Source: Fischerella sp. PCC 9431 (lineage in GTDB: Bacteria > Cyanobacteriota > Cyanobacteriia > Cyanobacteriales > Nostocaceae). From it: a stretch of 64,000 nucleotides of DNA. Under the pieces are notes generated by a model. The model was not told the origin of the DNA. It saw only the letters and a program-made list of their open reading frames with translations, and did not search any database. This document shows positions 4,267 to 57,881 of this stretch, piece by piece. Positions within the stretch are counted from its first letter, which is position 1. The number at the start of each line of letters is the position of its first letter. The position numbers were made by a program, and so were the translations under genes. The DNA lies in contig NZ_KE650771.1 of NCBI RefSeq assembly GCF_000447295.1, positions 62,001 to 126,000 on the forward strand, in the 5' to 3' direction.

Positions 4267-4851
4267 CTATTCTTCACTCGTAGATGTTGATTGGCTTGTA
4301 GTACCATGCAGCTTGATAAAACTATCAAATGCATACCATGCCAACACATACCAGGGAATAACTTCTAATTGCAAACCTTTAGTAAGTAACTGGCGAATGG
4401 AAAGGGTAGCAAGTCCTATGGGCATAATGATTCGCAAGTCAATTAAACCCTTAGTTGCATCGTTAACTCGATTATTCAAATCAACAATCGAGTTTGATAC
4501 TCCTGCTGCTGCTTCAGATTTTCCACCTGTAATATCAGCAAAAATAATCCCTAAATCAGATAGAGTTGCCAGAACGTTTTTGAAACTTTCATCGTCGCGA
4601 TTGTGCTGGATGGTAATACTTCCCTGATGCACATTCATCCGCACATCATTGATATTAGGGTTTCCCTGCAAAGCTTTAGCGAGGCGTTGCATTTCTTCCT
4701 TTTGACGATGGGAATGAGCAACTCGCAAACGTAACCTACCTGGAGTATTACTAACAATTTTTGTCAGTATTGATTTAGGTCGTCTTTTAATGATTTTGTC
4801 TGACATTGTTCTTGGCATCTGAGTGAGACTGCCATTACCATTTTTCAACAC
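4267..4851 (-). CDS. HMA-like domain membrane protein, single domain
   Basis: 194 aa. Residues about 30-100 form an HMA-type ferredoxin-like fold with the conserved PGRLRLRV start but no CxxC metal site (the HMA_2-like family). The C-terminal half has one or two hydrophobic stretches (about 135-185: RIIMPIGLATLSI and VIPWYVLAWYAF), so it is probably membrane-attached. It is the last gene of the minus-strand cluster 10539-4267 that includes a P-type ATPase, and probably works with it. Biochemical role unknown; a scaffold, metallochaperone or storage-organelle role is inference only. Confidence 0.7.
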   Translation of the reverse strand: MLKNGNGSLTQMPRTMSDKIIKRRPKSILTKIVSNTPGRLRLRVAHSHRQKEEMQRLAKALQGNPNINDVRMNVHQGSITIQHNRDDESFKNVLATLSDLGIIFADITGGKSEAAAGVSNSIVDLNNRVNDATKGLIDLRIIMPIGLATLSIRQLLTKGLQLEVIPWYVLAWYAFDSFIKLHGTTSQSTSTSEE

Positions 4852-5019
4852 GTAACCACTCTCCTTGAGTAATTACAAATTTTCTTCCTATTGAATAGGT
4901 TTAATCCAAAATCGTTCGACTGAGGCTCACGACGAAGTATAAAATCCAAAATTGTTAAAGGGCGAAAGTGAAAAACTTTGCTTTTCCCTTTGCCCTTTAG
5001 ACTTTACCCAACAAGCGTG

Positions 5020-5316
5020 TTATGCACCATTGTCGGATATATTATCAGCAGCTTCAACAGCTGGCAGTTGCTTAGATTCAGCAAGTTCTGCTCTGGCTTC
5101 AGCTACCATGTCTTCCCAACTTTCGCCTAATTCTGCAAAAGCTCCTTTGCTCTTTTCATAAAGAACAAGTCCACCTTTGATTAAAGATTTAGCGATTGGT
5201 TTACCAACTCCTGCTACTACTGGAATCACAACAGGTGCTAAAATGACTGCACCAATACCTGCAATAATTCCGGGTGCGCCAGCATCTTCTACAAAGTCAG
5301 TAATTTTCGGTGCCAT
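5020..5316 (-). CDS. small glycine/valine-rich membrane protein, DUF5132-like
   Basis: 98 aa. Residues about 12-48 are a long apolar Gly/Ala/Val/Ile/Pro stretch (GIIAGIGAVILAPVVIPVVA), followed by GKPIAKSLIKGGLVLYEKSK and an acidic amphipathic tail. This is the pattern of DUF5132 proteins, which I recall beside HMA_2-type proteins and P-type ATPases. It sits 133 bp downstream of the ATPase and 168 bp upstream of the HMA-like gene, same strand. It has no catalytic motif; it could be a membrane-shaping or partner subunit. Confidence 0.65.
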   Translation of the reverse strand: MAPKITDFVEDAGAPGIIAGIGAVILAPVVIPVVAGVGKPIAKSLIKGGLVLYEKSKGAFAELGESWEDMVAEARAELAESKQLPAVEAADNISDNGA

Positions 5317-5449
5317 TTATTTATTAACCTCACGTGAATTGAACTTTCTATTAAAACCTCTAACCTTAATTCATTTGAGATGGATATTTCATCTTGCTGT
5401 CGATAGAGATTTTGAATTTTGTTTGTATTTCACAAGCAACAACCAACTT

Positions 5450-7684
5450 TTAAACATTTGTTGGTTTGAGAAGTGGACGTAAACCATTGACTCCCGCAAC
5501 AACTGTGGAACCGTTGTTAACTACTGTTGCTGCTAAAGGATTCAGCCCAAAGAATACGGCTACCATCAAAGCAGCTAAGTTAGGAATGGCAATAATGCCC
5601 GTATTTTGCTGAATTAATTGCTTGGTTTGGCGAGCGATCGCGATCGCTTCTAGTAAGCCATGCAAATCATTGTGCATCAGTACCACGTCTGCTGTTTCAC
5701 GAGCAATATCGGAACCGTTGGCGAAGGAAACGGAAACATCGGCGTATGCTAAGGCAGGTGAATCATTGATGCCATCACCAACAAATGCAACTGTTTTGCC
5801 TTGTTCGTGTAATTCACGGACAACTGTTGCTTTTTGCTCAGGAAAAGCTTCGGCGTGGGTATGACTTGGGGCAATGCCAAGCTGTGCGGCTACGGCATTA
5901 GCAGTCTGCTGGTTGTCTCCGGTGAGCATGTGTACTTCCACATTTTCTACCGTTAACAGTCTGCTAATGACTTCGCGGCTTTCAGGACGCAATAAGTCAC
6001 TATACTCTATTATACCTAAAAGTTGACCGTTGCTGCCAACATAAATTGCCGAAGCCGGTTTTTTATGTCCCTCTAAGCTGGACATATCTATTTCTTGAAG
6101 ATGCAGGAAACGTTCACTACCCACAAAAACTGTGTCACCGTCGATCTCTGCTTTCACACCTAAGCCTAGCTGATAGTCCCACTTGCTACGTGGTAACATC
6201 TCAACTTTGTGAGCTTCGGCATAGCGCATGACTGCTTCTGCAACTGGGTGAGTTAGACGCTGTTCAGCAGTTGCAGCTAGTTGCAGCACTCTCAGAGAAG
6301 AGACGGCAGGATTAAGACTTTCCACACCAACAACAGCTGCTTCACCTTGAGTAAGCGTACCAGTTTTATCAAAGATAATGGTATCTACCTGTGCCAGTTG
6401 CTCTAGCGCTCTACCACTGCGGATCAGAACACCACGTTTTGCGGCATAGGTAAGAGCTGCCAAAACAGTTGTGGGTACAGATACCCGAATCCCGGTGGCA
6501 AAGTCCAGAGTCAGGACACTGGCGGCTCTGGCTGGGTTGCGAGTCAGGGCAAATACTGCTGCGCCTAGTAACAAAGTTGGCAATACTGTTTTTTGTGCTA
6601 CCGTGGCTGCATGGTTTTCCATACGGGTATCGTGGACGGGAGCTTGCTCCATTAACTGGAGGCTCTTGCCAGCACGTGTATCATTGCCGACTCGTTCTGT
6701 CAAAATATACATGCGTCCTTCTCGTACCAAGGTAGAAGCGAAGACGTTTTGTCCCTTGGTTTTGAATATAGGTACGGACTCGCCAGTCAGTTTTTGTTCA
6801 TCCAGCAGCGCTTTCCCTCGCAAGATTGTACCGTCAACAGGGACTTGTTCTCCTGGATAGACAATGACGATATCGCCGCATTGCACTTCCTGAATCGGTA
6901 TTTGTTGTTTTTCTCCATCTCGTTCTACCCAGGCGAATTGTCCCAGGGAACTGAGCAGATCTAAAGTTTGCTGTGCGGAACAACGAGCTGTGCGATCGCG
7001 AATCTTTTCACCGATATCAATTAAACTCAGCATTAATGCTGGTGCAAGAAATCTACCTTGGATTGTCGTAATGGCGATCGCAATCAAATCCAAAAAGTCA
7101 ATATTTAGTTTTCGCTCTAGTATAATTCCTTTCCAAGCGCGTTGGAGAACAGGCAAGGTAGCAAGAGAAATGGTTCCTACCATCAAAATCGGCGGAATGG
7201 TTAAGCCCAATGGACCACCCAGCATAGCCAAAGCAGTAGCAGCACCAGAAAGCTGTAATCCAGGCCAAGATGTCTGTGTTTCTTTCGTGATTTTTTGCGT
7301 TGTTGGTTTTAAAACCACAACTTCTGCTGCGGATTGAAATACATGGCCTAAATGATGACGCAGCTTAAATTCTGAAACTGTTTTGGGGTTATAAGTAACT
7401 GCAACCGATGCAGCAATTGGCTTGAGTCGAAAGGATGTGACTAACGCATCTGCTTCTAGCAGAACTTGGAGGCGCTTTGCGTAGTCTGGATTATGACGCA
7501 AGCGAGGTACTCGTAACCGTATTCTTCCCGGAATTGTATGGACAACAGTATAGTCTACTTTGGGAAGATGGGTGCGTGAATGTCCCTTATATTCGATAAA
7601 ATGGGCTTTCCCATGCTTTGGGGTCAAATTCAATTGGGAAACTTGACCTGCGGAGGATGGTAGACCCACCTTAACTTGTACCAT
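5450..7684 (-). CDS. heavy-metal-type P-type ATPase with HMA-like N-domain and no CPC motif
   Basis: 744 aa. Residues about 45-120 are an HMA-like domain (PGRIRLRVP) without CxxC. The ATPase core is intact: actuator TGES at 300-303, phosphorylation site D439-KTGT, HP at 479-480, GDGIND at 636-641. The sixth-helix metal motif, CPC in Cu/Zn/Cd pumps, is replaced by D394-F-A-T-G with P404 four turns on; the last helix carries NNGST (723-727). The protein has almost no cysteine. This fits the divergent P1B group that I recall as CtpC/ferrosome-type rather than copper or zinc exporters, so iron or manganese is a more likely cargo than copper. Neighbours are HMA-like proteins, which supports a shared metal function. 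Confidence 0.85.
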   Translation of the reverse strand: MVQVKVGLPSSAGQVSQLNLTPKHGKAHFIEYKGHSRTHLPKVDYTVVHTIPGRIRLRVPRLRHNPDYAKRLQVLLEADALVTSFRLKPIAASVAVTYNPKTVSEFKLRHHLGHVFQSAAEVVVLKPTTQKITKETQTSWPGLQLSGAATALAMLGGPLGLTIPPILMVGTISLATLPVLQRAWKGIILERKLNIDFLDLIAIAITTIQGRFLAPALMLSLIDIGEKIRDRTARCSAQQTLDLLSSLGQFAWVERDGEKQQIPIQEVQCGDIVIVYPGEQVPVDGTILRGKALLDEQKLTGESVPIFKTKGQNVFASTLVREGRMYILTERVGNDTRAGKSLQLMEQAPVHDTRMENHAATVAQKTVLPTLLLGAAVFALTRNPARAASVLTLDFATGIRVSVPTTVLAALTYAAKRGVLIRSGRALEQLAQVDTIIFDKTGTLTQGEAAVVGVESLNPAVSSLRVLQLAATAEQRLTHPVAEAVMRYAEAHKVEMLPRSKWDYQLGLGVKAEIDGDTVFVGSERFLHLQEIDMSSLEGHKKPASAIYVGSNGQLLGIIEYSDLLRPESREVISRLLTVENVEVHMLTGDNQQTANAVAAQLGIAPSHTHAEAFPEQKATVVRELHEQGKTVAFVGDGINDSPALAYADVSVSFANGSDIARETADVVLMHNDLHGLLEAIAIARQTKQLIQQNTGIIAIPNLAALMVAVFFGLNPLAATVVNNGSTVVAGVNGLRPLLKPTNV

Positions 7685-8007
7685 TGCTTCTCTCTCATAA
7701 AAAAATATTGGTGAACATTAGACTTCTTGCAGAAGTCGGGGGAAGGGTTATACCATTTTGGATTGGGAAACTCTTTGTGCATAAGAGTTCTGTCAGTTTA
7801 TCTGTCCCATTCTTTTTTCAAATTGGTATGAAAGGAATTGAAAAATCCTTTCCCCTTTAACCTGCAAAGAGGTTTATTGGTGACGAGAAGATAGTTCGTA
7901 GTCAGGACTTTAGTCCTTATTGAGCGCTAAAGCGCTCACTACAAACAGTGTCTTCAAGTTTGTATTTGGTTATTGGTTGAAAATTCCTGCTTTTGGGTTT
8001 TTTGCAG
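7685..8007. other. intergenic region: MITE-like copy plus dispersed inverted repeat
   Basis: The 323-bp gap between the ATPase gene and the three-domain HMA gene holds a MITE-like copy at about 7747-7830 (ends ttatacca and aattggtat) and a dispersed inverted-repeat pair at 7889-7952 (cgtagtcaggactttagtcc and gcgctaaagcgctcactac). A promoter for the ATPase may lie here; none was clearly identified. Confidence 0.55.
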
Positions 8008-9318
8008 TTATGCAACTGCTACATCACTAGCAGATTGCAGCAGATTTGCTAAATGCGATATTGCAGCTTCCAAAACACTGCGATCAGAATCTCTGGTGTT
8101 AGCTTTCACCGCAGATTTGTAATTTATGACTATTGATCCTGCTGCACGGTTAACTCGTTCGCCAATGACTGTTGGGTCTGCTTTTAATAAAGCCTCTAAG
8201 CACTGCACATATTGGGGATCACGAGTGATCCGAGGCACGTGAAAACGAATTCTTCCCGGAATGACGTGAGCAATCTTATATGCTACTTTGTTAGCTGGCT
8301 GCTTTGGTTTGTGTTCTGTTTTCTGGGGAAGCACAGCAGAATCCGGGCGAGACGAAGACGCTGGTAGGATTTTTGTCGTAGATAAACAAGAACTCTGGTT
8401 TCCACCTTTGTGAATTTCGGAGGATGCTTGCTTATTTATGCTTACTTGGGGCAAGTTTCTACTAGGTAGAAATTTGCATTCTGTAATTGTTGCAACTGCA
8501 ATTTCTTGAACAGCAGTAGCGTTAAAACGTCTTGTAGCCGGAGGATGGGAAGATGCAGAAAGAACTGGTAATTTCTCCTGATCTCGTTTTTGTACATTTT
8601 CTCTTTGGTTAACTGTTAGGTATGAATTCGTTGGTTGTATCTTTACTGGCTGTTCTTTACCAGATTGAATCAGATTAACTAGATGCGATCGCATCTCATA
8701 ATCTGACATAACTCCAGATTTGTAGATTACCACAATAGACGCAGCAGTGATATTTATTTGCACCTTCGTAACCAAAGCCTCTGCTTTCAACAACTTTACA
8801 AGACGCTCTTGATATTTTTCATCTCTGGAAATGCGAGGAACGCAAAACCCGACTTGTCCTGGCATTGCATAGGTAATGCTGTAAGCTTCTTTTACCTGTT
8901 CAAGTTGAGTAAACTTGATCTGTCCACTTTGTCTTTGACTAGTTTGGGAGTCAGAATTTCCTGGTTGAATCGTGACTGGCTCTTGTGCAGCAGACTGAAT
9001 CAGATGAGTGAGGTGCGATCGCATCTTTTCATCTGTTATTTCTCCAGTGTTGTAAGTCACTACCACAGATGCAGCAGTACTATTGATTTGCACATTTGTA
9101 ACTAAAGTTTCTGCTTTTAGTAACTTTTCCAGTCGTTCCACATATCTAGAATCTCTGGAAATCCGAGGAATGCATAATCCCACTTGTCCTGACATTGCAT
9201 AGGTAATGCTGTAGACTTCCTGGGGCGATTTCTGCTCAGTGTGATCAGTCTGCTGCGTAACTTTTACCTGGGTTTTTTTTTCTGGGGTAGATACCAGTCG
9301 TAGTATCAATCCAACCAT
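8008..9318 (-). CDS. protein with three HMA-like domains
   Basis: 436 aa built of three HMA-like repeats at about 36-105, 143-215 and 345-430, joined by polar, low-complexity linkers. Repeats 1 and 2 are close copies even at DNA level and have lost the arginines of the usual GRIRLRVPR start: they read GQVGLCIPRI and GQVGFCVPRI, each gaining a cysteine. Repeat 3 keeps GRIRFHVPRI. No transmembrane helix is evident, so it may be cytoplasmic or bound to an organelle surface. It is 15 bp downstream of the two-domain gene (9334-10539) and surely cotranscribed with it. Function unknown. Confidence 0.7.
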   Translation of the reverse strand: MVGLILRLVSTPEKKTQVKVTQQTDHTEQKSPQEVYSITYAMSGQVGLCIPRISRDSRYVERLEKLLKAETLVTNVQINSTAASVVVTYNTGEITDEKMRSHLTHLIQSAAQEPVTIQPGNSDSQTSQRQSGQIKFTQLEQVKEAYSITYAMPGQVGFCVPRISRDEKYQERLVKLLKAEALVTKVQINITAASIVVIYKSGVMSDYEMRSHLVNLIQSGKEQPVKIQPTNSYLTVNQRENVQKRDQEKLPVLSASSHPPATRRFNATAVQEIAVATITECKFLPSRNLPQVSINKQASSEIHKGGNQSSCLSTTKILPASSSRPDSAVLPQKTEHKPKQPANKVAYKIAHVIPGRIRFHVPRITRDPQYVQCLEALLKADPTVIGERVNRAAGSIVINYKSAVKANTRDSDRSVLEAAISHLANLLQSASDVAVA

Positions 9319-9333
9319 TGCTTTCCTCCCTCC

Positions 9334-10539
9334 TCAGTCCGGGGCTGCATTAATCGGAAAGTTCGCCATAAAGGCGAGAGCATAAGACAAAGCTGGAGCT
9401 TTGAAACTAGCCCATAAGCCAGTTACCTCTGGCGTTGGTTCCACTTTTGTTGTTGGGAATTCTTTTTTTTTGGTTGGCGCAGGAGTAACTAGTTTTTCTG
9501 CTTGCATCTGGACATCAGAGTGTTTCTGTGTCCCCGCCTCTTTTTGAATAACATGCGGTGCAGTCGTCTCCCCCTGTGCTAATTGCATCAAACCAACCCA
9601 GCGAGATGCTTTGATATTGTTTGGTTGATAGGCGATCGCCACTGATGCTGCATCACAATTGACACGGACGTTTGTAACTTGGGGATCAGCTTCGAGCAAT
9701 CTCTCCAAGCGTTTTGCGTAATCTCGGTCATGAGCAAGTTTTGGTATGCTCATCCTAATACGTCCCGGAATTGCATGAACAATGTTGTAAGTAATCTTTG
9801 CATTGTCCACATTTTTTGCTGGGAATAATTCTTGTTTGACAGTTGTGATTTGCTCCACTTTTGCTAAAGAGGTTTGAGGTGTATCTTGATGGTTTGTTAT
9901 CGGTTGGGTTGCAGAAGCTGTATTCAATTTTTTATTCTTTTTAGTTCCCAATAATTGAGGTTCTATATAGTCAATCACACGTCGGGTAGCGTCTGCTGTA
10001 ATCATGTATACCGGAATTGCTGCTAACCCGTTAATTCCTATCGCCCCCGTGACTCCTAACCCTGCAAATAAAGGAATAAACGAAAGTCCTTGCTCTTTCC
10101 AAAATTCTACAGATTTCCAAGCAGCAAAGGCATCACTATTATTTTCGCAATCAGAAATAGCTTGATATTGCTGAATGCCAAACTCTTGCAGTATTGTCAA
10201 CATCTCTGGCAAAGACAGCCTAGCTTCATCAAATTTAACCACTAAACTACTCGTTTTGTGATTAATCGTGATTTCCGTGACACCATCATGCTGCCGTAAT
10301 TGCCGGGATAAACTTTCAAGTATCGAGCTATGATTGACATCAGTGGCACGGATTCGCACACGGCCTTGAGTTACATGAATAATTTTCAACTTGCCAAGCA
10401 TAGATTGTGCGGTTGACCGTGTAGATACTTCACCCTTATGGTTACGAACTTCATCGCTCTGCTGATGAGCAAAGATTAAGTCAGAAGATGGTTGCAGCGC
10501 TTGACCTAACCCCTCGCGACTACTAATAGTTTTTGTCAT
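9334..10539 (-). CDS. membrane protein with two HMA-like domains
   Basis: 401 aa. HMA-like domain 1 (about 50-120, starting GRVRIRATDV) is followed by a hydrophobic segment (about 148-185, LFAGLGVTGAIGINGLAA), a polar linker, HMA-like domain 2 (about 250-325, GRIRMSIPKL) and a short hydrophobic C-terminus (about 375-398). No CxxC is present. It is the first gene of the cluster; a 95-bp gap separates it from the def stop codon and contains a TATACA-like -10 box on the minus strand near 10608. It likely starts an operon with the three-domain protein. Confidence 0.7.
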   Translation of the reverse strand: MTKTISSREGLGQALQPSSDLIFAHQQSDEVRNHKGEVSTRSTAQSMLGKLKIIHVTQGRVRIRATDVNHSSILESLSRQLRQHDGVTEITINHKTSSLVVKFDEARLSLPEMLTILQEFGIQQYQAISDCENNSDAFAAWKSVEFWKEQGLSFIPLFAGLGVTGAIGINGLAAIPVYMITADATRRVIDYIEPQLLGTKKNKKLNTASATQPITNHQDTPQTSLAKVEQITTVKQELFPAKNVDNAKITYNIVHAIPGRIRMSIPKLAHDRDYAKRLERLLEADPQVTNVRVNCDAASVAIAYQPNNIKASRWVGLMQLAQGETTAPHVIQKEAGTQKHSDVQMQAEKLVTPAPTKKKEFPTTKVEPTPEVTGLWASFKAPALSYALAFMANFPINAAPD

Positions 10540-10634
10540 TTACCCAATAGTTACCTCAAACCCAAAAGGTTAACATCAGATTAAATTTAACTTAAATTTC
10601 CGCCTTTTGTATAGCTCTTTAGAATTATTTTTTA

Positions 10635-28164: not shown

Positions 28165-28236
28165 TTTTCCAACAAAAAAATCCCCTAGCAACCGACAGTC
28201 AACTAGGGGTGTTTGTTATCAGGGTGCATCTACCAA
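28165..28236 (+). ncRNA. nsiR1: NsiR1-type RNA copy 1 (no TCCGGA)
   Basis: Hairpin CCCCTAG 28182-28188 / CTAGGGG 28203-28209. The place where TCCGGA should lie (about 28126) reads gatacatc, so this copy may be silent or differently controlled. Ends are estimates. Confidence 0.6.
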
Positions 28237-28303
28237 TTAATATGTTCTGAGAAAAACCAGTATACTCCGGATAAATTTGTGCAAAAACTGGGCTACATGT
28301 TTG

Positions 28304-28372
28304 TTTTTGTACATAAAAAATCCCCTAGCAACCGACAGTTAACTAGGGGAGCGAGTTATCAGGGTGCATCTA
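28304..28372 (+). ncRNA. nsiR1: NsiR1-type RNA copy 2
   Basis: TCCGGA at 28266-28271; hairpin with a 7-bp stem at 28322-28349. Transcript ends are estimated from the promoter motif position and the known size of about 60-70 nt. Confidence 0.75.
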
Positions 28373-28442
28373 CCACTAATATGTTCTGAGAAAAACCAGT
28401 ATGCTCCGGATAAATTTGTGCAAAAATTTGGCTACATGTTTG

Positions 28443-28512
28443 TTTTTGCACATAAAAAATCCCCAAGTAGCCAACAGCTATCAAGGGGAGTTTGTTATCA
28501 GGGTGCATCTAC
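28443..28512 (+). ncRNA. nsiR1: NsiR1-type RNA copy 3
   Basis: TCCGGA at 28405-28410; -10-like ctacat at about 28432; CCCC 28461-28464 pairs with GGGG 28485-28488. The stem is shorter than in copies 1-2 because tag/cta became aag/caa. Confidence 0.75.
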
Positions 28513-28581
28513 CACTAATATGTTCCGAGAAAAACCAGTATGCTCCGGATAAATTTGTGCAAAAATTTGGCTACATGTTTG

Positions 28582-28651
28582 TTTTTGCACATAAAAAATC
28601 CCCAAGTAGCCGACAGCTATCAAGGGGAGTTTGTTATCAGGGTGCATCTAC
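28582..28651 (+). ncRNA. nsiR1: NsiR1-type RNA copy 4
   Basis: TCCGGA at 28544-28549; CCCC 28600-28603 pairs with GGGG 28624-28627. Nearly identical to copies 3 and 5, pointing to recent tandem duplication. Confidence 0.75.
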
Positions 28652-28720
28652 CATTTATATGTTCCGAGAAAAACCAGTATGCTCCGGATAAATTTGTGCA
28701 AAAATTTGGCTACATGTTTG

Positions 28721-28790
28721 TTTTTGCACATAAAAAATCCCCAAGTAGCCGACAGCTATCAAGGGGAGCGAGTTATCAGGGTGCATCTAC
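28721..28790 (+). ncRNA. nsiR1: NsiR1-type RNA copy 5
   Basis: TCCGGA at 28683-28688; CCCC 28739-28742 pairs with GGGG 28763-28766. Last well-conserved copy of the array. Confidence 0.75.
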
Positions 28791-28860
28791 CAATTACTAT
28801 GTTCTGAGACAAACCTACATGTTCCGGATAAATTTGCGAAAATGGGATGAAATAGTTATG

Positions 28861-28929
28861 AAAAACAACATAAAATCCCTCAGTAGCCGATTACCAACAA
28901 GGGGAGTGAGTTATCAGATTTAATCTACC
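28861..28929 (+). ncRNA. nsiR1: NsiR1-type RNA copy 6 (diverged)
   Basis: TCCGGA at 28823-28828 is kept but the transcribed part is diverged: tccctcagtagccga...aagggga with a weakened stem (28877-28904). It is followed by several catctacca repeats (about 28955-28987). Confidence 0.5.
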
Positions 28930-28930
28930 A

Positions 28931-29994
28931 AACATCTATCAGTCGTTTATTTTAGACATCTACCAATCATCTACCAATCATCTACCAGTCTTTTTTTGAA
29001 AGCAAAACCGTTACTATAAAATTGGATGCAAACACTAGGGGTATCAAGATATAGGACTAAACGGATAGTAGGGTATAGAAAACAGAGTATGGAAAATAAG
29101 GCATAACAATTGTGAATTTCTCATTTTGAATTAGGTTGGCTTTTTTAACTTTCTGGTTTTATATCCAATATCCGAAAAAATCTTCCAGTTTTGGCAAGAT
29201 TATGAATTAGACCTATACTCATATACCCTAGTTTCTCCAAAAACTAGGTGGTAAAAATAAAAACCCCCTAGTGCTTGATAGTCAACTAGGGAAGCAGAGT
29301 TACCAGGGTATATTTACTAATCCAAAATTCTGGTTGTCTATATTGTCATCAGGATAAACTTTGCGGATTTTTACGGTAAATGGATAAATTTTTTTCCATT
29401 CCACTAAATGTACCAAATGTGCTGTGAGATCTGGTACAAACTAATTTGTGGACCAACAAAGGGTTATATCTAGTTTACTTGAGTACTTATCATGTAAGAC
29501 TAGACCCGAAGACACGATAATGTGGTGACGCGGTAAATTTTTTGATAAATAATTAGGCGGACATGATACGATATTCAACCCAGCATGGGCCAAAAAAATT
29601 TTAGAGGATTGGGGAGCAAAAGCAGGGATAAAGAAAAAATAATTTAGAATATCTTTTTCCTTACCTGATATCAGTTTCTAGCCTTTCGGTGAAAAGCAAA
29701 GGTAAAATCTTGTTTACATAGGGGAGTTTTTTTGGTAAGGATAGAAAAACTCCCCAGAGTGTATTAGCCAAACAGGGGAGTTAAAGATCAAGGTGCATCT
29801 ACCAATAAGAATGTTCTAGGCACAGCCGACAAAATCCGGATTAAAGTTGTAGAAGTTGCAAAAGCAGCAAAACAACTGCAATCAGAAACATCTCAGTTGC
29901 AAGATGCATCTAAATGTATCAGAAACAGCGAAACATCAACTTGAAAATGAATCGCGTGTAAAACCGGATCAGTAGGAGGCAAACAGGAGAAATT
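28931..29994. other. hetF upstream region with decayed NsiR1 modules
   Basis: About 1 kb without a gene. Two decayed modules are visible: a hairpin CCCTAG/CTAGGG at 29265-29291 followed by taccagggtatatttacta, and an AACTCCCC/GGGGAGTT hairpin at 29749-29782 followed by aaggtgcatctaccaat. A TCCGGA at 29835-29840 is not followed by an NsiR1 hairpin and lies 155 bp before the hetF start, so it may serve hetF itself (inference). Confidence 0.6.
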
Positions 29995-57294: not shown

Positions 57295-57600
57295 TTAGTT
57301 TAATGGCACAGCATCAATATCAATTACAGTAGCTGTTTGAGTCGAATTTGATTCAGCAGAAGTAACTTTTTTACGGTTTTTGAGTTGTTCTATAGCAATT
57401 TGAGAAACTTCTGCAATCACAAAGCTAGCAATCAGCCCATCATCAATCCATCCTACAACTGGGACAACATCTGGTGAAATATCCAGTGGACTGATCAGAT
57501 AAAATAAACTCGCAGTAATTGCGAACCAGCGATATTTAGGATGATGCAGAACTTTACGGATTCCGTTTTGTAAGAACTGGGTAAAAAATCTTTTTCTCAT
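57295..57600 (-). CDS. YkvA-like DUF1232 small membrane protein
   Basis: 101 aa. Core FYLISPLDISPDVVPVVGWI (about 33-55) is the DUF1232 signature, preceded by a basic amphipathic N-terminus. Likely membrane-bound; function unknown. Monocistronic. Confidence 0.85.
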   Translation of the reverse strand: MRKRFFTQFLQNGIRKVLHHPKYRWFAITASLFYLISPLDISPDVVPVVGWIDDGLIASFVIAEVSQIAIEQLKNRKKVTSAESNSTQTATVIDIDAVPLN

Positions 57601-57881
57601 TAAAATACCCCTCCAATTAACAAGATGATCTTGACAAATTTATCCACAAAAATCTGGTGTAGATCACCCTTGACTTTGTAGTGGAAATACACCATCTCAT
57701 ATATGTATGGTTAAGCTTAGGTTGAGAGTTAGTCAAAATGAAATAGCCCAGATTGGGAAGATTGGCTTCAAAATCAGACTAAAGAATTAAGACTAATTAC
57801 TTCTATTGAATGTAGATCAATTTAGGACTTAGTTGGTTAGCTTGAGATTAGGAATTGAAGTACTTAAGGTAGGTGAAAAAA

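Follow-up and report, generated by a model that had tools for sequence, protein, structure and literature searches.

A fez-like block of P-type pump and HMA_2 genes behind a Pho-box-like site in Fischerella sp. PCC 9431: a candidate iron-sequestration system

A block of five genes, here called A to E, in the cyanobacterium Fischerella sp. PCC 9431 (genome of 7.17 Mb) may encode a ferrous-iron sequestration system of the fez kind, which would belong to a cyanobacterial sister lineage and would be switched by the phosphate regulon (Pho) in the family to which the strain belongs. Taken as a whole, this reading has in our judgement an even chance of being right. The block lies in a stretch of 64 kb, hereafter the window, which comprises positions 62001-126000 of one contig. 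The reading draws on the domains of the encoded proteins, the clade into which the P1B-type ATPase (gene C) falls, the residues that this pump shares with FezB-type pumps, the relationship of its DUF5132 neighbour (gene D), the linkage of relatives to Feo and ferritin genes, and the site found in front of gene A.

The five genes are all encoded on the minus strand and are separated by gaps of 15 bp (A-B), 323 bp (B-C), 133 bp (C-D) and 168 bp (D-E). Their products carry seven Pfam HMA_2 domains (PF19991) above the cut-off, two in A, three in B and one each in C and E, and the motif check found no occurrence of CxxC in any of the five proteins. Thus, open reading frames (ORFs), Pfam and motifs confirm what a preliminary description of this DNA had reported, namely five minus-strand genes with seven HMA-like domains without CxxC. 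GRxR stands at the position of the metal loop in five of the seven domains; the remaining two, the first and second repeats of B, read GQVG(L/F)C, which places one Cys at the would-be metal loop; the third repeat of B reads GRIR. In gene A, according to hydropathy, a single hydrophobic segment separates the two HMA_2 domains. The same description had noticed a P-type ATPase without CPC and a small Gly/Val-rich membrane protein, and both observations hold, taking into account that C has D394-F-A-T397-G-I-R in place of CPC and that D is a DUF5132 protein with 21% Gly plus Val and two overlapping hydrophobic peaks. The coordinates are collected in Table 1.

Table 1. Features of the five-gene block and of the site in front of it (positions are those of the window)
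Feature	Position	Strand	Basis and remarks
Gene A, 401 aa	9334..10539	-	PF19991, 71 bits; two HMA_2 stretches; loops GRVR and GRIR
Gene B, 436 aa	8008..9318	-	PF19991, 77.5 bits; three HMA_2; begins 15 bp after A
Gene C, 744 aa	5450..7684	-	P1B-type ATPase; E1-E2_ATPase and HAD hydrolase domains, N-terminal HMA_2
HMA_2 of C, residues 46-108	7361..7549	-	PF19991, 31.8 bits (cut-off 30); GRIRLR replaces CxxC
CPC-equivalent segment of C, residues 394-404	6473..6505	-	DFATGIRVSVP; alignment
Gene D, 98 aa, DUF5132	5020..5316	-	PF17195, 65.4 bits; small Gly/Val-rich membrane protein
Gene E, 194 aa, GTG start	4267..4851	-	PF19991, 51.8 bits; profile positions 9-150 of 154
Pho-box-like site	10567..10596	-	TTTAAGTT-AAA-TTTAATCT-GAT-GTTAACCT; three 8-bp repeats, 11-bp period

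For the phylogeny of the pump, P1B ATPases were gathered from the phylum, from plasmids, from named genomes (the best 80 of 585 confirmed stretches, 588 having matched) and from the Bradyrhizobium and Mailhella families, in which 12 of 248 and 81 of 149 genomes, respectively, matched at threshold. A quick tree was made with 76 rows, of which the 25 from cyanobacteria form one clade, with a support of 100 in the Shimodaira-Hasegawa-like approximate likelihood ratio test (SH-aLRT). Together with a Deinococcus row (L097) and a further row (L098), they adjoin 12 of the 13 rows labelled FezB-like, with a support of 90 for the FezB-like group and of 99 for the joint one; the thirteenth row, from Priestia (L101), falls outside the FezB clade. 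FezB pumps belong to the P1B-6 class. The careful tree, of 43 rows, includes the candidate FezB of D. magneticus and was made without L097, L101 and L098, the last of which has a long branch. In this tree, 12 cyanobacterial and 12 FezB-like rows occupy one side of a branch (100/99.9), and the FezB-like rows alone are grouped at 97/93, with the cyanobacterial rows standing beside them and not among them. Taking into account that the root was placed at the midpoint, that the groups were named beforehand but after the quick tree, and that the CPC region was kept in, the assignment of C to a cyanobacterial sister lineage of the FezB-type pumps is the natural reading of these sequences, but not the sole one.

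The preliminary description had named a grouping of the ATPase with copper or zinc exporters as evidence against its reading. This was not seen, and in the approximately unbiased (AU) test the union of the cyanobacterial rows with the copper-type pumps (p-AU 7.8e-6) and that with the zinc-type pumps (p-AU 7.1e-6) were both rejected. The part of the comparison suggested there that concerned CtpC was covered through one row, L109 from the Mycobacteriaceae, no named CtpC being included; this row has CPC and is separated from C in the quick tree, and a mycobacterial CtpC-like identity of C was set aside. The placement with FezB-like pumps and away from the copper and zinc types stands. In the genus to which Clostridioides mangenotii belongs, a search for FezB matched none of the five genomes covered, and C. 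difficile may not be among them. Another pump of the Fischerella genome (L018) pairs in the quick tree with one of Nostoc carneum.

At the site where CopA-type pumps read A-C-P-C-A-L-G, the FezB-like rows mostly read D-(Y/F)-S-C-A-L-K and the cyanobacterial ones D-(F/L)-x-T-G-(I/V)-R. Residues were counted in one alignment of 32 cyanobacterial rows (including the divergent L065 and L066), 18 FezB-like rows (including the near-copies L221/L224 and L222/L223, and without L097, L098 and L101) and 17 other P1B rows. Asp394 is present in 32/32 cyanobacterial and 18/18 FezB-like rows and in none of the 17 others, and Asn724, in the last helix, behaves similarly (31/32, 18/18 and 0/17). Asn702 is found in 32/32 and 18/18 rows, but it is not specific to the clade, since 10 of the 17 other P1B rows also have it. 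The Lys/Arg of the D(Y/F)xC..K motif is present in 31 of the 32 cyanobacterial rows. Both Cys residues of C (235 and 269) lie outside the CPC region, and a harder ion, Fe2+ or Mn2+ for instance, would suit a thiol-free site of this sort. The two divergent paralogues mentioned above (L065, 7962-10277; L066, 8534-10708) come from genomes of the same class and have 38-39% identity, and their CPC regions read DFGSGIGI and DFGTGVKL, respectively.

A second line of evidence concerns gene D. A DUF5132 profile built on cyanobacterial ORFs was searched against every ORF of 45 aa or more in 24 stretches, fez-like or related, giving nine matches (E 1e-7 to 6e-4, in a small set). Each of them immediately precedes an ATPase, which is a FezB-like pump in eight cases (18 stretches, L221 included) and the Deinococcus relative in one. 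When DUF5132 was compared by hhalign with a profile of the small ORFs adjacent to FezB, an E value of 8e-6 over 38 columns and a probability of 84% were obtained. On the strength of these profiles, D is a relative of the small membrane protein encoded beside FezB, which we take to be FezA. In at least two further stretches, L103 and L106, a similar small ORF was recognised beside the pump by eye, with no DUF5132 match at E up to 10.

The locus L221 is presumably part of the D. magneticus RS-1 chromosome, an organism in which the fez genes reportedly make ferrosomes. As in the window, the P1B ATPase there has Asp in its CPC region and is accompanied by the related small membrane protein and by an HMA_2 partner that has GRxR and no CxxC; the order in L221, small ORF - ATPase - HMA_2 ORF, differs from that of the window. 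Relative to L221, the cyanobacterial pump has Thr or Ser for Cys, E is without the His pair, the HMA_2 domains are more numerous, and a Pho-box-like site stands in front. Thus, the layout of L221 and the DUF5132 relationship suggest that a three-part plan is shared, whereas the cytochrome feature is not. According to a short statement in PMC11334425, ferrosomes are formed by the fez genes, and FezC is described there as a haem cytochrome. The fez operon of Rhodopseudomonas has six genes, RPA2333-2338 (PMC12016538). Its candidates in the present data are L222, L223 and an Azospirillum locus (L099), where a FezB-like pump has HMA_2-type genes beside it, along with a YtxH-like membrane protein of small size; the pump motif there is DYSCALKL, and a FUR-family gene lies near L222.

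The neighbours of the pump in relatives point to iron. They were counted in a focal set of 33 cyanobacterial ATPase stretches (34 minus L075, which repeats the window; G119 and G083, which have the ATPase too, were left out) and in a control set of 20 stretches, each around another P1B ATPase from a genome in which the focal one is also present. FeoB reaches at least 200 bits in 11 of the 33 (L059, L061-L064, L068, L083, L086, L087, L091 and L093) and FeoA alone is present in L090, giving FeoB or FeoA in 12/33 focal against 0/20 control stretches (P 0.0013 for 0/20 given 12/53, a value that is uncorrected and ignores kinship, in sets whose lengths differ). Weaker matches to the FeoB profile in L067, L089 and L094 (21-42 bits) and in one control (31 bits) were not counted. 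In L083, FeoA-FeoB come immediately before A-C-D-E, and the row in L091 consists of FeoA, FeoB, FeoC, a ferritin (PF00210, 130 bits), DUF2202, an HMA_2-like ORF detected with a custom profile, and the ATPase. An ORF of the ferritin-like DUF2202 type appears in four of the 33 stretches (L059, L068, L090 and L091), and L106, a clostridial locus of the FezB-like kind, has FeoA just upstream, together with an ORF of the FUR family. Ferrous iron is the likely metal of C. As separate observations, the FeoA-FeoB pair of L083 (5187-15620, from the window's family) is flanked by two ATPase copies of different subgroups, and on the plasmid of Deinococcus peraridilitoris (L097, 16510-18157) genes for a metal-dependent regulator and a metal ATP-binding cassette transporter lie about 6 kb after the ATPase relative.

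The block itself is conserved. Among 194 genomes sampled from the same phylum, 26 contain an ATPase that scores 590 bits or more, and the closest named match of C is that of Gloeothece verrucosa (51%). Nine relatives were read in detail, L077-L083 from the window's family and L084 and L085 from the same order. When the block was sought in them, as the preliminary description had proposed, the order A-(B)-C-D-E was found in eight of the nine, L080 having C-D-E only. A B-like gene is present in three (L077, L078 and L081), E-like genes are present in all, and in five of them a def gene lies upstream of A, as it does in the window (by eye). Given the ATPase matches and the kept gene order, the block is more than a chance arrangement. 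In L067 (G002; 8157-10575) the focal ATPase gene is split into two reading frames.

In front of gene A, 27 bp before its ATG, lies the Pho-box-like site of Table 1. With a Pho-box matrix made from 21 of the 30 rows of Table 1 of PMC1906773, it is the best site of the whole window on both strands, with 23.1 bits, and a run of three TTAA cores, spaced by 11 bp and closing with TTAAC, is found once in the window, against 0.02 expected. Tandem repeats are common to the sequences upstream of A. Within their own stretches, the relatives' sites rank first in L077, L078, L079, L082 and L085, and those of L081 and L084 take second place; in 7/9 the distance from the end of the site to the ATG is 25-27 bp, and single-base shuffles give p <=0.006 in 8/9. 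The motif YTTAACCTNNNSTTAACCW is found in seven of 256 loci: five upstream regions of the block, L253 (a second copy of one of them) and the region upstream of PstS (L256; G191). In the Fischerella genome the three-core pattern occurs four times, against none for its reversed control, and these sites lie before this block, about 250 bp before the polyphosphate kinase gene (ppk), before a tetratricopeptide repeat (TPR) gene and before one other ORF. The 8-bp tandem repeats, the 3-bp linker and the TTAA cores are common to this site and to the cyanobacterial Pho regulon as given in PMC1906773 and PMC11126600. In Synechocystis, PhoB is also reported to regulate iron uptake, and its binding sites to contain three direct repeats with TTAA cores (PMC11126600). 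The main text of PMC1906773 contains no mention of all200, alr200, cation, ATPase, metal or iron. Gene A looks, from its upstream sequence, to be preceded by a candidate phosphate-starvation switch. A general scan for promoters and terminators gave matches no more frequent than in shuffles. The second-best Pho-box-like site of the window (57708-57737, minus strand, 19.6 bits) lies about 107 bp before a 101-aa ORF (57295-57600).

A mechanism can be proposed in which falling phosphate would lead SphR/PhoB to turn on A-E through the Pho-box-like site, in the window's family. The pump C would then export Fe2+ from the cytosol across a membrane by means of a thiol-free site formed by Asp394, Thr397, Asn702 and Asn724, and the HMA_2 proteins (A, B and E), together with D, would assemble with C and organise the membrane or the mineral. 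The product would be a membrane-bounded store of iron, perhaps of iron phosphate. Less phosphate would mean more free iron, so that storage or removal of the metal would protect the cell. Fe2+ as substrate, the direction of transport, the compartment and the induction are the parts of this scheme that we infer.

Several observations weigh against a Pho-switched system of the fez kind. Some of them concern the protein parts: residue 397 is Thr in 31 and Ser in one of the 32 cyanobacterial rows, whereas it is Cys in 18/18 FezB-like and 17/17 other P1B rows; the DUF5132 profile gave no match in 10 of the 18 FezB-like stretches; E is without the His pair of FezC-like ORFs (compared with those of L221, L226 and L099); and HMA_2 and DUF5132 also partner Ca-ATPase-like pumps in the same genome. 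Others concern iron: the window's copy has no Feo neighbour, no Feo gene reaches the threshold in 21 of the 33 focal stretches, some of which are short or cut, and a FeoB_N search of the Fischerella genome found no clear FeoB, the best match being an Era-like GTPase ORF with 71 bits (the FeoB proteins of L059, L083 and L091 score 154-212 bits). As for the switch, the matrix scan of eight relatives left L083 without a Pho-box-like site before its block, and no good site was found upstream of the copies in L059, L061, L068, L086, L087, L090, L091 and L096; six Feo-linked copies (L059, L061, L068, L083, L086 and L087), and L090 and L091 as well, are without one. Moreover, a looser two-repeat pattern is no more frequent than its reversed control both in the Fischerella genome (3 vs 7) and in G191 (4 vs 6). 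Regarding the comparison with fez made in the preliminary description, the grouping on the FezB side, the DUF5132 relationship and the Feo/ferritin linkage stood, while the His pair in E and the Cys of FezB did not appear. As neither the Cys of FezB nor the haem signature of FezC is present, the block is better called a fez-like sister system than a proven ferrosome.

The pairing of HMA_2 and DUF5132 with Ca-ATPase-like pumps, as would be expected of general pump partners, implies that these domains need not mean an organelle, and it makes plain efflux the strongest rival, an exporter with accessory scaffolds having been the alternative named in the preliminary description. In such a case C would move Fe2+ out of the cytosol or transfer it, to the periplasm or the thylakoid lumen, and the HMA_2 and DUF5132 proteins would be scaffolds without any organelle, which we consider quite possible, if on balance doubtful. 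The clade and the Feo linkage speak for iron without speaking for a compartment, and the missing FezC-like feature also fits such a pump, but a plain exporter would hardly seem to need as many as seven HMA_2 domains in addition to a FezA-like protein, and ferritin or ferritin-like genes stand beside some relatives. A pump for manganese or another hard divalent metal, supplying the photosystem or serving under stress, would also be suited by the thiol-free CPC-equivalent segment. Manganese had been raised in the preliminary description, together with a role in heterocysts, and nothing was seen pointing to either. Taking into account that relatives lie near FeoA/FeoB and ferritin and that no manganese transporter was noticed in the neighbour lists (read by eye and partly by HMM, hidden Markov model), this explanation seems improbable. 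Copper and zinc/cadmium exporters of the CopA/ZntA type share with C the P-type ATPase domains and the catalytic motifs; C scores above the NCBIfam cut-offs of TIGR01525 (general heavy-metal) and TIGR01512 (cadmium), and in sequence searches of solved structures copper, zinc and cadmium pumps rank first, followed by other P-type classes. However, C is below the TIGR01511 copper cut-off, its block is without CxxC, and such exporters have CPC or a variant of it (SPC, CPG or CPD) and lie on the other side of the tree, neither of which applies to C. The identity as a copper or zinc exporter is rejected by the motif and tree tests, and an ordinary exporter of copper or of zinc/cadmium is left with a very small probability.

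The sequestration reading can be extended to a broader proposal, that cyanobacteria build their own kind of ferrosome around a thiol-free Fe2+ pump and that phosphate starvation has come to control it in the window's lineage, which we regard as rather unlikely, though far from negligible. If true, a single operon would tie iron storage to phosphate supply, comparable with the plant ferritin-PHR1 link, which appears as a title in the reference list of PMC11126600. According to the abstract of that paper, iron and phosphorus may co-limit phytoplankton, and the operon would offer a direct handle on iron allocation in cells at low phosphate. Iron-storage organelles would be extended to oxygen-producing phototrophs, and functions would be gained for DUF5132 and for P1B pumps whose metal site contains no Cys. 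Among the matches listed, the literature searched contained no mention of DUF5132 and no link between ferrosomes and the Pho regulon; the primary fez papers may show cyanobacterial FezB relatives.

Further genes with these domains were observed elsewhere in the Fischerella genome. Two Ca-ATPase-like pumps (L070, 6365-9643; L071, 6686-10336), recognised by Cation_ATPase_N/C, carry an N-terminal HMA_2, and the pump of L071 is immediately preceded by a gene that encodes DUF5132 together with an HMA_2 below the cut-off. Two large P-type ATPase ORFs flank a DUF5132 gene in L074; one of the two was checked and has no HMA_2. A PAP2-family membrane phosphatase (L072, 6885-7904) also has an N-terminal HMA_2, with 30.1 bits (cut-off 30). 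Finally, in the window itself, the minus strand at 28174-29804 carries six copies of NsiR1, a nitrogen-stress-induced RNA.

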